64,000 nt of DNA from Callipepla californica brunnescens (Eukaryota > Chordata > Aves > Galliformes > Odontophoridae). A program made the position numbers and the translations under genes. The stretch is from NCBI GenBank assembly GCA_023055505.1, contig JALIRH010000095.1, positions 682,001 to 746,000 of the forward strand, read 5' to 3'. The notes beneath the pieces are model-generated. The model made no database searches. It was not told the DNA's origin and worked only from the letters and a program-made list of their open reading frames with translations. Position 1 is the first letter of the stretch. Each line of letters begins with the position of its first letter. Shown here in pieces: positions 36,916 through 59,524 of the stretch.

Positions 36916-36991
36916 ATGGCGTTGGCGGGGGGGGAGGTCGCGCAACGTGGAGCTCCTGGGGGAGCTACAGCGGCTGCTCGCGCACACGCAG
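36916..36991 (+). CDS. SGF29: SGF29 first coding exon, with one-base surplus in a G tract
   Basis: ATG in good context (GGCCATGG) opens MALAGG; from the next frame the exon continues SRNVELLGELQRLLAHTQ and then a GTGGGA donor at 36,992. The pattern MAL..., ...ELLxELxxLLxxTQ matches the start of SGF29, the N-terminal coiled-coil that anchors it in the SAGA/ATAC acetyltransferase module, and the exon end falls in phase 0 where the family continues. The coding stretch is 76 bases, not a multiple of three: the G run at 36,927-36,934 has eight bases and one fewer would join the two frames. This may be a sequencing or assembly error in a homopolymer or a true inactivating change. The matching terminal exons lie at 18,824 (upstream, unit 1) and 59,267 (downstream, unit 2); middle exons are not visible. 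Confidence 0.75.
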
Positions 36992-37310
36992 GTGGGAAAG
37001 GGGAGGGGGGGAGGAGTGGGGTGGCGGAGGGAGAAGGGGGGAATAGGGTGTGGGTGGGGTGGGGCGGAGTTGGGTGAGGGACGGGGATGTGGGGCTGGGG
37101 TTGGGGCTAATGGGGCTCGATGCTCGGTTCTAAGTCCGGGTGCTCAGTTAGGGGTCTGAAGGCTCTGTTATGGGGCTGGGGCTGCAGATGTGGGGTCGGG
37201 GTTGTGGGTCCGGGGCCGTCGATGTGGGGGAGGGATCAGCCAGTCCTCATTGGTGGGCAACCATGGAAGGGGCGAGGACTCCAACAAAAGAAGCGGGGGG
37301 AAACCAGCAG
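36992..37310 (+). other. Start of SGF29 intron 1
   Basis: Non-repetitive G-rich DNA following the donor GTGGGA, with GGGGTGGGG and TGTGGGGCTGGGG-type short repeats. It passes into the 11-bp satellite at about 37,310. No further exon is recognised. Confidence 0.5.
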
Positions 37311-40300
37311 CCCCACTGCTGCCCCATAGCCTCCTCATAGCTGCCCCACTGCAGCCCCATATCTGCCCCGTGGCTGCCCCACTGTTGCCCCGCTGCCACC
37401 CCATAGCCACCCCACTGCTGCCCCATAGCTGCCCCACTACTGCCTCATAGTGGCCCCATAGCCTCCTCAGAGCTGCCCGATAGCTGCCTCATAGCCACCA
37501 GATAGCCGCCCCATAGCTGCTCCATAGCCTCCCCATAGCCTCCTCATAGCTGCAACACTGCTGCACCATAGCTGCTCCATGGCTGTATAATAGCCGCCCG
37601 ATAGCTGCCCCACGGCTTCCCAATAGCTGCCCAATAGCTGCCCGACTACTGCCACATAGCCGCTCTATACCTGCCCAATAGCCTCCTCATAGCTGTCCCA
37701 CTGCAGCCCCATACCTGCCCCATGGCTGCCCCATTGCTGCCACATAGCCACCCCACTGCTGCCCCATAGCTGCCCCACTACTGCCTCATAGCGGCCTCAT
37801 AGCCTCCTCAGAGCTGCTCGATATCTGCATCACTGCTGCCTTAGAGCTGCCTCATAGTGGCCCCATAGCCTCCTCAGAGCTGCCCGATAGCTGCCTCATA
37901 GCCACCAGATAGCCGCCCCATAGCTGCTCCATAGCCTCCCCATAGCCTCCTCATAGCTGCAACACTGCTGCACCATAGCTGCTCCATGGCTGTATAATAG
38001 CCGCCCGATAGCTGCCCCACGGCTTCCCAATAGCTGCCCAATAGCTGCCCGACTACTGCCACATAGCCGCTCTATACCTGCCCAATAGCCTCCTCATAGC
38101 TGTCCCACTGCAGCCCCATACCTGCCCCATGGCTGCCCCATTGCTGCCACATAGCCACCCCACTGCTGCCCCATAGCTGCCCCACTACTGCCTCATAGCG
38201 GCCTCATAGCCTCCTCAGAGCTGCTCGATATCTGCATCACTGCTGCCTTAGAGCCGCCCCATAGCTGCCCCACTGCTGCCCCATTGCTGCCTCACTGCAG
38301 CCCCATAGCTGCCAATGGCTGCCCCATAACCTCCTCATAGCTGCCCCACTGCTGCCCCATAGCCGCCCCATAGCTGCCCCACTGCTAACTTATAGTTGCC
38401 CCACTACTGCCCCATAGCTTCCCCACTGCTGCTCCACAGCCGCCCCAAAGCCTGCTCATAGCTGCCCCACTGCTGCCCCATATCTGCCTCATGGCTGCCT
38501 CATAGCCGCACCATAGCTGCCCCACTGCTGTCCCATAGCTGCCCTATAGCTTCCTTGTAGCTGCCCCACTGCTGCCCCATAGATGCAAAATGGCTGCCTC
38601 ATAGCTGCTCCGTAGCTGCCCCACTGCTGCCCTATAGCATTTCCATAGCCTCTTCATAGCTGCCTCACTGCTGCCCCACAGCCACCCCATGGCTGCCTCA
38701 TACCTGCCCCATAGCTGCCTCCTAGCCGCTCCATACATGCCCCATAGTCTCCCTATAGCGTCCTCATTGCTGCCCCACTACTGCCCCATAGCTGCCCCAC
38801 TACTGCGTTATTGCTGCCCCACTGCTGCCCCATAGCTGCCCCATAACGTCCTCATAGCTGCCCCATACCTGCCTCACTGCTGCCCAATAGGTGCCCAAAG
38901 GCTGCCTAATAGCCGCCCCATAGCTGCCCCACTGCTTCCCAATAGCTGCCTTATATCTGCCCGACTGCTGCCCCATAGCTGCCTCATAGCCTCCCCATAG
39001 TCTCCTCATAGCTGCAACACTGCTGCCCCATAGCCTTCCCATAGCTGCCTTAGCTGCCCCACTGCTGCCCCATATCTGCCCCATAGCCTCCTCAAGGCCT
39101 CCTCATAGCTAACCCATAGCTGCCTCACTCGTGCCCCATAGCTGCCTCTCTGCTGCCCCATAGCTGCCCCATAGCCTCCTCATAGCTGCCTCACTGCTGC
39201 CCCATATCTGCCCAACTTCTGCCTAATTGCTGCCTCACTGCTGCACCATAGCTGCCCTACGGCTGCCTCATAGTTGCCCCATAGCTGTCTCATAGCCACC
39301 CAATAGCTGCCTCCATAGCCTTCTCGTAGCTTCCTTACTGCTGCCCCATAGCTGCACCGTGGCTGCCCCATAACTGCACCGTGGCTGCCTCATAGCCGTT
39401 ACATATCTGCCCCATAGCCTCCCCATAGCCTCCCCATAGCTTCCTCATAGCTGCCTCACTGCTACCCCATAGCTCCCTCGCTGCTTCCCCATAGGTGCCC
39501 CATGGCTACCTCATAGCTGCCCCACTGCTGTCCCATAGCTGCCCCATGGCTGCCTCATAGCCACCCCATAGCTGACCCACTGCTGCCTCATAGCCACCCC
39601 ATAGCTGACCCACCGCTGCCTCATAGCTGCTCCACTACTGCCCCATAGCTGCCTCACTGGTTTCTCATACCTACCCCATGGCTGCCTCATAACCTCACCA
39701 TAGCTGCCCCACTACTGCCCCATAGCCACCCCGTCGCTGCCCCATAGCCTCCCCATACTTGCCCCATAGCTGTCTCACTGCTGCCCCATAGCTGCCCCAT
39801 GGCTGCCTCATAGCCGTCCAATAGCTGCCCGACTACTGCCCCATAGCTGCCTCATAGCCTCCCCATAGTCTCCTCATAGTTGCCCACACTGCTGCCCCAT
39901 AGCCTCCCCATAGCTGCCTTAGCTGCCCCACTGCTGCACCACATCTGCCCCATAGCCTCCTCATAGCTGACCCATAGCTGCTTGATAAGTGCCTCATACC
40001 TGTTGTATAACTGCCTCACTGCTGCCCCATAGCTGCCCCATAGTTTCCTCAGAGCCTCCTCATATTTGCCCCACTGCTGCCCCGTAGCTGCCTTACTACT
40101 GCCCCATACCTGCCTCACTGCTGCCCCATAGCTTCCCCGTCGCTGCCTCATAGCCGCCCCATTGCTGCCCCATGGCTTCCCAATAGCATCCTCAAAGCTG
40201 CCCCATTGCTTCCCCTTAGCTTCCTCACTGCTGCCCCATAGCTACCCCACTACTGCCCCATAGCCGCCCCGTAGCCTCAAAGCTGCCCCACTGCTGCCCC

Positions 40301-58066: not shown

Positions 58067-59266
58067 GGGTTAGATTAAGGGTGAGGGTTAGGATTAGGAC
58101 TAGATTTAGGATTAGGTTTAGGAATAGGTTTTCTTTGATTGTTAGAGTGAGAGAAAGGTTAGGCCTTGGGTTTGTTTTTGGAATAGTTTTGGGTTTCAGA
58201 ATAGGAATTGGGTTAGTATTTGGAATCTGTTTTGGTTTAGTATTAGTGTTAGGGTCAGGGTTAGAAGTTAGGTGATGGCTGTGGTAATCTAATGCTTTGT
58301 GTTAGGCTTAGGGTTGGGCTTAAATTTGGGGTTGGTTTTAAGGTCCCATTTAGATTTCAGGTAGAATTGGAGTTAAATTAAGGTAACGGTTAGGATTAGA
58401 TTTAGGGTTCTGATAAGGGTTAGGTTAGGGTTAGGGTTTGGTTCCAAGTTGTTTTTAGGGTTAGGGTTAACGTTAGGTTTCAGGATAGGGTTAGGAATAT
58501 AGCTAGGTGTTAGGTAAGGTTTAATCCTAGGGTTTCAGTTCGGGTTAGGTGAAGCATTAGTTTTACAGTTAGAAGACATGTTAGGGTTAGGGTTAGGTTT
58601 TGGTGTAGATTTAGGTTTAGGGTAAGGGTTAGGGATGTAGATGAAGGTTTAGTGGAAGGGGTAGGGTTCTCTTTAGTTTTAGGACCCACAGCACAGAACC
58701 CGGCCCCAAAAGGGCATGAACGGACCCCATAACCCAGCCCTATAATGTCGATATCTGACCCCAAAACTCAGCGCCAAAATCCTGCAATTCCACCCCAAAA
58801 TCTCCATTATCAGCCCCAGAATCCGATTATTTCCCCCAAATGTCAGCCCCAAATCCCATTAGTTCCCCCCTGACCCCACAATTTTCCCCCGACCCCATAA
58901 TTCCCCCCCATGACCCTATAATTTCCCCCCCAACCCCATCAATTCCCCCCTGTGACCCCATTACTTCACCTCCTGACCCTGTTACTTCCCCTATTCCCCC
59001 CGACCCTATAATTGCCCTAGAACAGCCGCAGGACGATTCCTCGGTGCTGTTTGAGGTCACATCAGCCCAACTCCATTACTTTCCCCGCGTCCCCATAATT
59101 CACCTGTTCCCCCCGTGACCCCATTAATTTCCCCTCTGACCCTATTAGTTCCCCTGTTCCCCCTCCAACCCTTTAAATTCCCCCTGACCCCATAATTCCC
59201 CCTGACCCCATTGCTTTCCTCCCGACCCCATAAATTCCCCCTGACCCCATAATTGCTCTATAACAG
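58067..59266. repeat. Diverged TTAGGG segment and 18-bp C-rich minisatellite, unit 2
   Basis: Counterpart of 17,605-18,823. The telomere-like part runs to about 58,686 and lacks the short AATATAGCTAGG duplication of unit 1. The CCCCATAATTCCCCCTGA array follows, again with the stray exon fragment near 59,027-59,056. Confidence 0.87.
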
Positions 59267-59524
59267 CCGCAGGATGATTCCTCGGTGCTGTTTGAGGACA
59301 CGTTGTACGCTGACGGATATTCATCGCCACTCAACGTCGCACAGCGCTACGTTGTGGCCTGCAGGGACACCAAGAAGAAGCGACCCCGTGTGGCCGTTTT
59401 GGGGCCGTTCCAGGATTTGGGTTTTTTGGGGTCATTAGGGCCGATTTACGGTCACTTTGGGGTCACTCTGGAGCACTTTGGGGTGCAGTGCTGCATCGTG
59501 GCCTGCAGAGACACCAAGAAGTGA
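59267..59524 (+). CDS. SGF29: SGF29 terminal exon, unit 2 copy
   Basis: Identical in design to 18,824-19,081: acceptor TATAACAG, PQDDSSVLFEDT and YADGYSSPLNVAQ signature, CGA (59,381-59,383) in place of the expected stop, and a second tail IVACRDTKK with a TGA at 59,522-59,524. It lies 22.3 kb downstream of the SGF29 first exon at 36,916 on the same strand. That is the right order for a gene, but none of the intervening exons is visible in the satellite DNA between. Confidence 0.82.
   Translation, partial: PQDDSSVLFEDTLYADGYSSPLNVAQRYVVACRDTKKKRPRVAVLGPFQDLGFLGSLGPIYGHFGVTLEHFGVQCCIVACRDTKK

Follow-up and report, generated by a model that had tools for sequence, protein, structure and literature searches.

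The window analyzed here, a 64,000-nucleotide stretch of the genome of Callipepla californica brunnescens, carries the first and last coding exons of SGF29 with about 22 kb of repeats between them. A sequence-only reading of this locus had placed two explanations side by side: a relic of the gene, or a clue to why GC-rich genes of avian microchromosomes so often go unreported. What, then, is this copy of SGF29, and how did it lose its middle? All genome counts and loci given below come from one assembly, and the features of the window described below lie on the forward (+) strand.

Exon 1 (36,916–36,991) and the last coding exon, exon 9 (59,267–59,383), stand in gene order on the same strand, as had been claimed, and both are homologous to SGF29. 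The terminal exon shares 32 of 39 residues with human SGF29 (window search, E 7e-16), and its best match to the SGF29 entries of the PDB has an E of 1.3e-16. Exon 1 matches the human sequence weakly (E 1.4); its DNA aligns at 85.5% identity, with a single gap, to the first exon of an intact SGF29 in the same genome (locus L029) and is identical to exon 1 of L011/L039. The terminal exon had been drawn as 59,267–59,524, which is correct in its assignment to SGF29 and too long in its extent. The exon ends at 59,383. With its stop lost, the frame runs on through flank as far as 59,524. This read-through closes with part of the exon's end copied a second time (59,485–59,524, with a TGA), inside the former 3′ flank (59,384–59,995; identical to L029 at 462 of 510 aligned bases).

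Remains of the gene surround both exons. A GC-rich, CpG-island-like 5′ region of the former SGF29 (36,468–36,915) aligns together with exon 1 to L029 2236–2583 (409 of 451 bases identical), and GC content is 0.73 and CpG observed/expected 1.1 across 36,468–36,991. Exon 1 is followed by remnants of introns 1 and 2 without exon 2 (36,992–37,305), where 37,150–37,229 corresponds to L029 intron 1 and about 37,227–37,286 to intron 2. An 11-bp satellite comes next (37,306–42,488; TRF unit AGCTGCCCCAT, 472 copies). By comparison of the units, this satellite has the repeat unit of SGF29 intron 3, which in the intact gene is present as 17 copies of GCTGCCCCATA. At the far end, a remnant of intron 8 (58,687–59,266, matching L029 6248–6666) leads into exon 9 and contains an extra copy of the exon 9 start (exon piece 1–38, at 59,026–59,063).

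The remainder of the interval consists of repeats. Arrays of an 8-bp unit (ATTCTGAC) with two interspersed solo-LTR-like inserts (42,513–48,155) are followed by a degenerate TTAGGG array whose G-rich strand is the sense strand of SGF29 (48,158–57,224; TRF GTTAGG, 1530 copies, 73% matches), and then by an LTR-like insert with a telomere-like remnant (57,471–58,683). Of the 11-bp, 10-bp, and TTAGGG arrays and three LTRs previously placed between the exons, the 11-bp and TTAGGG arrays do lie there, and the 10-bp satellite (61,096–63,057) lies beyond exon 9 and the former gene; the three interspersed inserts are called LTRs by eye only. Beyond exon 9, two candidates for a neighboring gene were set aside, with no match in PDB or Pfam: a short frame whose ATG lies near 59,972, and a stretch resembling an exon near 60,862. 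The C43 sequence lacks, by eye, the ATG near 59,972. Outside the window, L037 holds no open frames of at least 140 aa and L038 holds two.

The middle exons are absent, in agreement with the first description. When all nine exons of the intact gene were compared by blastn (E up to 1e-6) with the interval between the window exons, only pieces of exon 9 were found. Weaker tblastn matches to the middle of SGF29 within the window fall in arrays or other repeats, several with stops, and both searches reject the idea that middle exons are concealed there. The short exon frames of the window have no match in Pfam.

An intact SGF29, which the sequence-only reading had suggested looking for, is found elsewhere in the assembly on contig C43 (locus L029). 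It has nine exons, an open frame of 882 nt, and retained splice sites, and the complete frame encodes the tandem Tudor domain expected of a functional SGF29. Its introns are full of TRF arrays, and an extra piece of exon 5 is present. The window, by comparison, has homology to exons 1 and 9 and no complete open reading frame with a tandem Tudor domain. Its exon 1 carries one extra base (a frameshift), its stop is changed from TGA to CGA, and its middle exons are gone. Exon 9 (108 of 117 bases identical to the intact exon) diverges from the intact gene about as much as its flank does (9/117 vs. 48/510). Judged from its sequence, the window copy is dead and probably lacks any protein function. 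The relic reading is thus supported by the complete gene elsewhere together with the frameshift, lost stop, and missing exons. The explanation for missing genes, in the form given, is unsupported, since SGF29 is present in complete form. Nor is the copy a processed pseudogene, since remnants of introns 1, 2, and 8 remain; the copies at L030–L034 also contain introns.

Two readings of these genes deserve weighing at this point. Exons 1 and 9 might still be spliced over 22 kb, perhaps with middle exons from elsewhere, to give a working or shortened SGF29. Possible splice sites are left (GTGGGA after exon 1 and AACAG before exon 9) and the CpG-rich 5′ region is retained, but exon 1 is in the wrong frame from its ATG, exon 9 has lost its stop, a complete gene exists on C43, and the locus has about 600 copies, so that a living split gene is extremely unlikely. 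Alternatively, the C43 gene may be a moved or drifting duplicate, with the true SGF29 orthologue missing from the assembly. Nine of 293 residues differ from a chicken protein assembled from P0121 and P0036, and wherever the turkey and peafowl entries span those sites, they side with chicken. Homology of the C43 locus to the array also stops downstream at L029 7,667, after which a PHF7-like gene follows. However, its frame, splice sites, and Tudor domain are retained, and no better SGF29 occurs among the 150 of 283 candidates that were scored. We regard a duplicate on C43 as unlikely, with enough in its favor to be taken seriously.

The window copy is one of many. With three mismatches allowed and 0 control hits for each pattern, the genome holds 618 matches to exon 1, 586 to exon 9, 517 to the deletion junction, and 72 to exon 8. 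Among the 91 listed exact copies of exon 9, spread over ten contigs, 69 are preceded within 35 kb by an exact exon 1, at a median of 22.3 kb, and 2 have one on the wrong side; 22 have no exact exon 1 upstream, and on C40 none of 8 is paired. Two places on C95 picked for an expected exon 1 both contained it. On C47, C49, C63, C76, C79, and C81, the listed exact copies lie on one strand per contig, and the exon 9 region is 100% identical in the 40 copies that were scored. Within the window, the unit is ~41 kb long. The unit before it is laid out alike, exon 1 then exon 9; the earlier description had noted the same terminal exon ahead of the first exon in unit 1. Its exon 1 lies at C95:678,119, just outside the window, and its junction pattern and exon 9 lie at 18,224 and 18,824–18,940. 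The two units are 99.5–100% identical in nine compared blocks, the TTAGGG array left out. Many head-to-tail copies and high identity between them indicate that the window belongs to a macrosatellite derived from a gene, at a site that is probably pericentromeric. Exact exon 9 copies outside the window have a median spacing of 79 kb, and the family may fill tens of megabases (586 copies × about 70–80 kb = 40–46 Mb, an extrapolated upper estimate).

The missing middle is explained by a related copy on contig C81 (L033). This copy has a telomere-like/LTR block 98.8% identical to that of the window (57,700–58,686), followed by an 11-bp array and exons 4–8. The window lacks 4.3 kb of L033 holding that array and these exons, and both sides of the junction (58,684–58,686, a 3-bp overlap of two BLAST matches) are common to L033. 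The junction pattern is exact in 12 of 12 window-type copies examined and absent from all 27 locus entries that show the exon 8 pattern, some of which overlap the same place. The genome counts (517 junctions vs. 72 of exon 8, 586 of exon 9, and 618 of exon 1) thus point to one deletion behind most copies. Could the middle exons instead have been collapsed or lost from the repeat during assembly? Such arrays are difficult to assemble, and array collapse or mis-joins are possible in one assembly; however, the same junction recurs in 517 places, the same order and a similar distance are seen on ten contigs, and copies with exons 4–9 are assembled elsewhere in the same genome. An artefact is very unlikely.

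Related copies were also compared. In a tree, window-type copies are shallow and fall within the diversity of those retaining exon 8, and a 2-nt gap in exon 6 is common to eight distinct non-C43 loci with aligned exon 6. Extra edge copies of exons 5, 8, and 9 are detected by blastn. Where exon 8 is kept, silent codon changes outnumber altering ones (e.g., 3 altering, 6 silent), a point against the explanation that follows, since part of the copies' history may have been constrained.

The whole is very probably explained by a dead copy of SGF29 whose middle was removed by one deletion before the copy was amplified as a macrosatellite. Homology, decay, the deletion with its frequency, and the order and orientation of the copies are all seen in the sequence. 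A genomic, intron-bearing copy would have died early. The telomere-like/LTR block was probably inserted inside an expanding intron 3 array, because the C81 block adjoins an 11-bp array standing where intron 3 stands in the gene. Later, a single deletion took the downstream 11-bp array and exons 4–8, leaving exons 1 and 9 about 22 kb apart, and the deleted form was amplified head-to-tail until it made up about 500 of some 590 copies across many contigs. Their near-identity is presumably maintained by unequal exchange or gene conversion in heterochromatin. A more speculative addition, which we consider improbable, is that the array has retained what transcription, not translation, needs: ~600 copies of exon 1, kilobases of TTAGGG on the sense strand, and a terminal exon. 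The CpG-island-like 5′ region is seen at exon 1 in the copies read. Transcription, perhaps in the germ line, would yield UUAGGG-rich, TERRA-like RNA along with SGF29-sense RNA, and working as pericentromeric or telomere-like chromatin, not as a gene, may be what let the array spread.

Human D4Z4 is a gene-bearing macrosatellite with a 3.3 kb unit and a usable reading frame. The quail array resembles it in having long tandem units that carry gene sequence and differs in its unit of ~41 kb in the window and its broken multi-exon gene. Work on chicken dot chromosomes describes pericentromeric heterochromatin with amplicons, where hundreds of gene-sequence copies lie in satellite-rich DNA, and names TTAGGG repeats at centromere cores (PMC9974502). 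Hundreds of gene-sequence copies in satellite-rich DNA, and TTAGGG repeats, are shared with the family described here. In chicken, OR29G has 386 intact copies and amplified genes are often testis-expressed, whereas the window-type copies are broken; SGF29 is unnamed in the main text of that paper (PMC9974502). A second process, sequence stuttering, fills the introns of dot-chromosome genes with repeats and copies exon edges while coding regions stay intact, and pseudogenes are not seen after lost genes (PMC12954441). Imperfect local intron repeats and copied exon edges (of exons 5, 8, and 9) occur here too: in the intact gene the introns are full of arrays and a piece of exon 5 is copied, and in the window pieces of both ends of exon 9 are. 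The present case differs from stuttering as described there: a gene with such introns has a dead copy amplified on a massive scale, and multi-kilobase satellite is built from the gene's intron unit. With its repeat-filled introns and duplicated exon edges, the setting is still part of the wider story of GC-rich avian genes reported missing (PMC12954441). Searches of the open-licence PMC literature, with word searches of PMC9974502, PMC12954441, and PMC11745021, turned up no SGF29 copies in birds.

For annotation, a search for SGF29 in this genome meets hundreds of fragments. For bird genomics, the locus links two open topics, the instability of repeat-filled genes and gene-bearing heterochromatin. 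One assembly holds the stages by which a dead copy of a conserved gene becomes satellite DNA. These are an intact gene whose introns are filled with repeats, broken copies with exons 4–9, and a single deleted form, present some 500 times, with the intron unit spread over kilobases. Because these stages survive side by side, their order and spread are datable and testable in relatives.

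The two coding exons that flank the repeat arrays of the window belong to SGF29, as the sequence-only reading had named them. Exon 9, the last coding exon (59,267-59,383), matches solved SGF29 structures and human SGF29. Exon 1 (36,916-36,991) is weak against human SGF29 (E 1.4) and is identified by its match to exon 1 of the intact SGF29 gene of the same genome. Its C-terminal end, LQRLLAHTQ, resembles that of the entries from chicken and turkey, LQRLLGHTQ, whereas the other bird entries read have LHQLIKQTQ at the same stretch; an exon 1 of this type points to a galliform bird. 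The absence of middle exons from the window, also claimed from the sequence alone, is borne out by blastn: when the nine exons of the intact gene were used as queries, exons 1 and 9 alone matched, together with a 38-nt extra copy of the exon 9 start. An extra copy of the exon 9 end lies at 59,485-59,524. Exon 2 is absent from the window, with intron 1 joined straight to intron 2, and exon 3 is likewise missing.

The window is C95:682,001-746,000 of an assembly of 1.085 Gb in 321 contigs; an intact SGF29 gene of nine exons is located on another contig, at C43:4,647,000-4,656,000 (locus L029). Each exon is preceded by AG and followed by GT where due, and the 882-nt frame has no internal stop. 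The product carries the SGF29 Tudor domain (Pfam, 137 bits) and differs at 9 of 293 residues from the chicken protein assembled from two entries; against the best chicken entry, the SGF29 found in this assembly aligns across 94% of its length at 95% identity, so the bird is not taken to be chicken. A second intact SGF29 may exist elsewhere in the assembly, because 150 of 283 candidates were scored in the genome search. Short tandem repeats are abundant in the L029 introns. Intron 3 contains GCTGCCCCATA 17 times; read in a different register, this is the repeat unit of the 11-bp satellite that occupies window 37,306-42,488. Homology to the arrays stops at position 7,667 of L029, and PHF7-like exons follow the intact gene at 8,617-8,902 (PDB PHF7, E 2.7e-9).

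Exons 4-9 are retained in loci L032, L033, and L034, and fewer of them in L030 and L031. In reverse orientation, L033 (contig C81) matches window 57,700-58,686 at 98.8% identity; past that block it continues into an 11-bp array and then exons 4-8 before homology resumes at window 58,684. The 4.3 kb of L033 between the two matching blocks is missing in the window. All 12 window-type copies examined carry the resulting junction (58,684-58,686) exactly. Of 27 locus entries that match the exon-8 pattern, some of them overlapping at the same place, none has the junction pattern. Genome-wide matches with at most three mismatches number 517 for the junction, 72 for exon 8, 586 for exon 9, and 618 for exon 1, with none for any of these patterns read backwards. 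The nearness of 517 plus 72 to 586 is not to be over-read because such counts miss diverged copies, for example exon 9 of L032.

The copies are arranged as a macrosatellite, and the window spans parts of two units. Exact places number at least 100 each for exon 9 and exon 1. Pairing was counted for 91 of 100 listed exon-9 places, on ten contigs, leaving out nine on C83 and C85 beyond the extent of the exon-1 matches listed. For 69 of the 91, the matches listed include an exact exon 1 that lies upstream in the same orientation and no more than 35 kb away (distance 14.8-32.3 kb, median 22.3 kb); two have one on the wrong side, and none of the eight on C40 is paired. A separate count on six of these contigs, again among the matches listed, paired 58 of 68 and gave a median spacing of 79 kb between exact exon-9 copies, an upper estimate of the period since copies with mismatches are left out. 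On the window's own contig, C95, exon 1 was predicted upstream of exon 9 at 808,842 and 941,154 and was found at 786,703 and 920,229, in stretches picked because it was expected there. By extrapolation, 586 copies at 70-80 kb each would occupy about 40-46 Mb. Among the matches listed, C67:2,047,020-2,512,167 holds ten exact exon-1 places on alternating strands and C67 no exact exon-9 place, a pattern of inverted exon-1 pairs without exon 9. Two further repeats lie in the window. One recurs in both units, at 22,280-26,600 and from 63,060 (928 bp 100% identical), and by eye is a putative fragment of a minus-strand endogenous retrovirus; the other is a 3.5-kb direct repeat that includes telomere-like DNA, inside one unit (26,454-29,970 and 31,729-35,225, 95% identical).

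A tree was built from exon 9 and up to 583 bp of its 3′ side (30 different rows, identical ones merged; L009, L012, L019, and L035-L038, overlapping or without exon 9, left out). In it, the window-type copies cluster together at shallow depth (support 89/78), next to L018/L034 (98/89) and L033 (100/99), which retain exon 8 among other parts. Support is weak at several other forks. Copies on C134 and C40 (e.g., L030, L022), with exons 7-9 present and on both strands of one contig, form a separate group, a second amplified subfamily. A 2-nt gap in exon 6 is common to all eight distinct loci outside C43 with aligned exon 6, which suggests that their founder was probably dead already. A compact copy outside the arrays (L039, C53:3,429,000-3,438,900, positions 4651-6274) carries exons 1, 7, 8, and 9 within 1.7 kb, with the stop codon changed to GGA. 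Its exon 1 is identical to that of the window, and the region around that exon agrees with the window at 99.2% of 255 bp, so pieces seem to have been exchanged between contigs in recent time.

Compared with the L029 gene, gaps left out, the window copy differs at 9 of 117 bases in exon 9, 48 of 510 aligned bases in the 3′ flank, and 42 of 451 aligned bases in the 5′ region with exon 1. The exon-9 changes alter the product of four codons, one of them the stop, whose position reads CGA, and affect four other codons silently. One extra base in exon 1 makes the frame from its ATG depart from that of SGF29. The array copies likely have no protein function. In copies retaining exon 8, silent changes mostly outnumber altering ones there, which counts against the simplest picture of decay.

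The near identity and head-to-tail order of the copies would fit homogenisation in heterochromatin, by either unequal exchange or gene conversion. The 5′ region of window exon 1 is CpG-island-like (CpG observed/expected 1.1), and downstream of it and of exon 1 comes a 9-kb array whose sense strand reads TTAGGG. On a bold reading, the copies might be maintained as transcribed, TERRA-like chromatin. Parts of a study of chicken dot chromosomes describe hundreds of gene copies in pericentromeric heterochromatin, often testis-biased, and telomeric repeats at centromere cores (PMC9974502). Sequence stuttering, as described in parts of another study, is the expansion of dot-chromosome introns and exon edges, and the portion drawn on here states that pseudogenes were not seen after gene loss (PMC12954441). 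As far as these portions of the two studies go, the window would connect the amplicons of the first (PMC9974502) with the stuttering of the second (PMC12954441), as a gene copy with introns of the stuttered type that became satellite.
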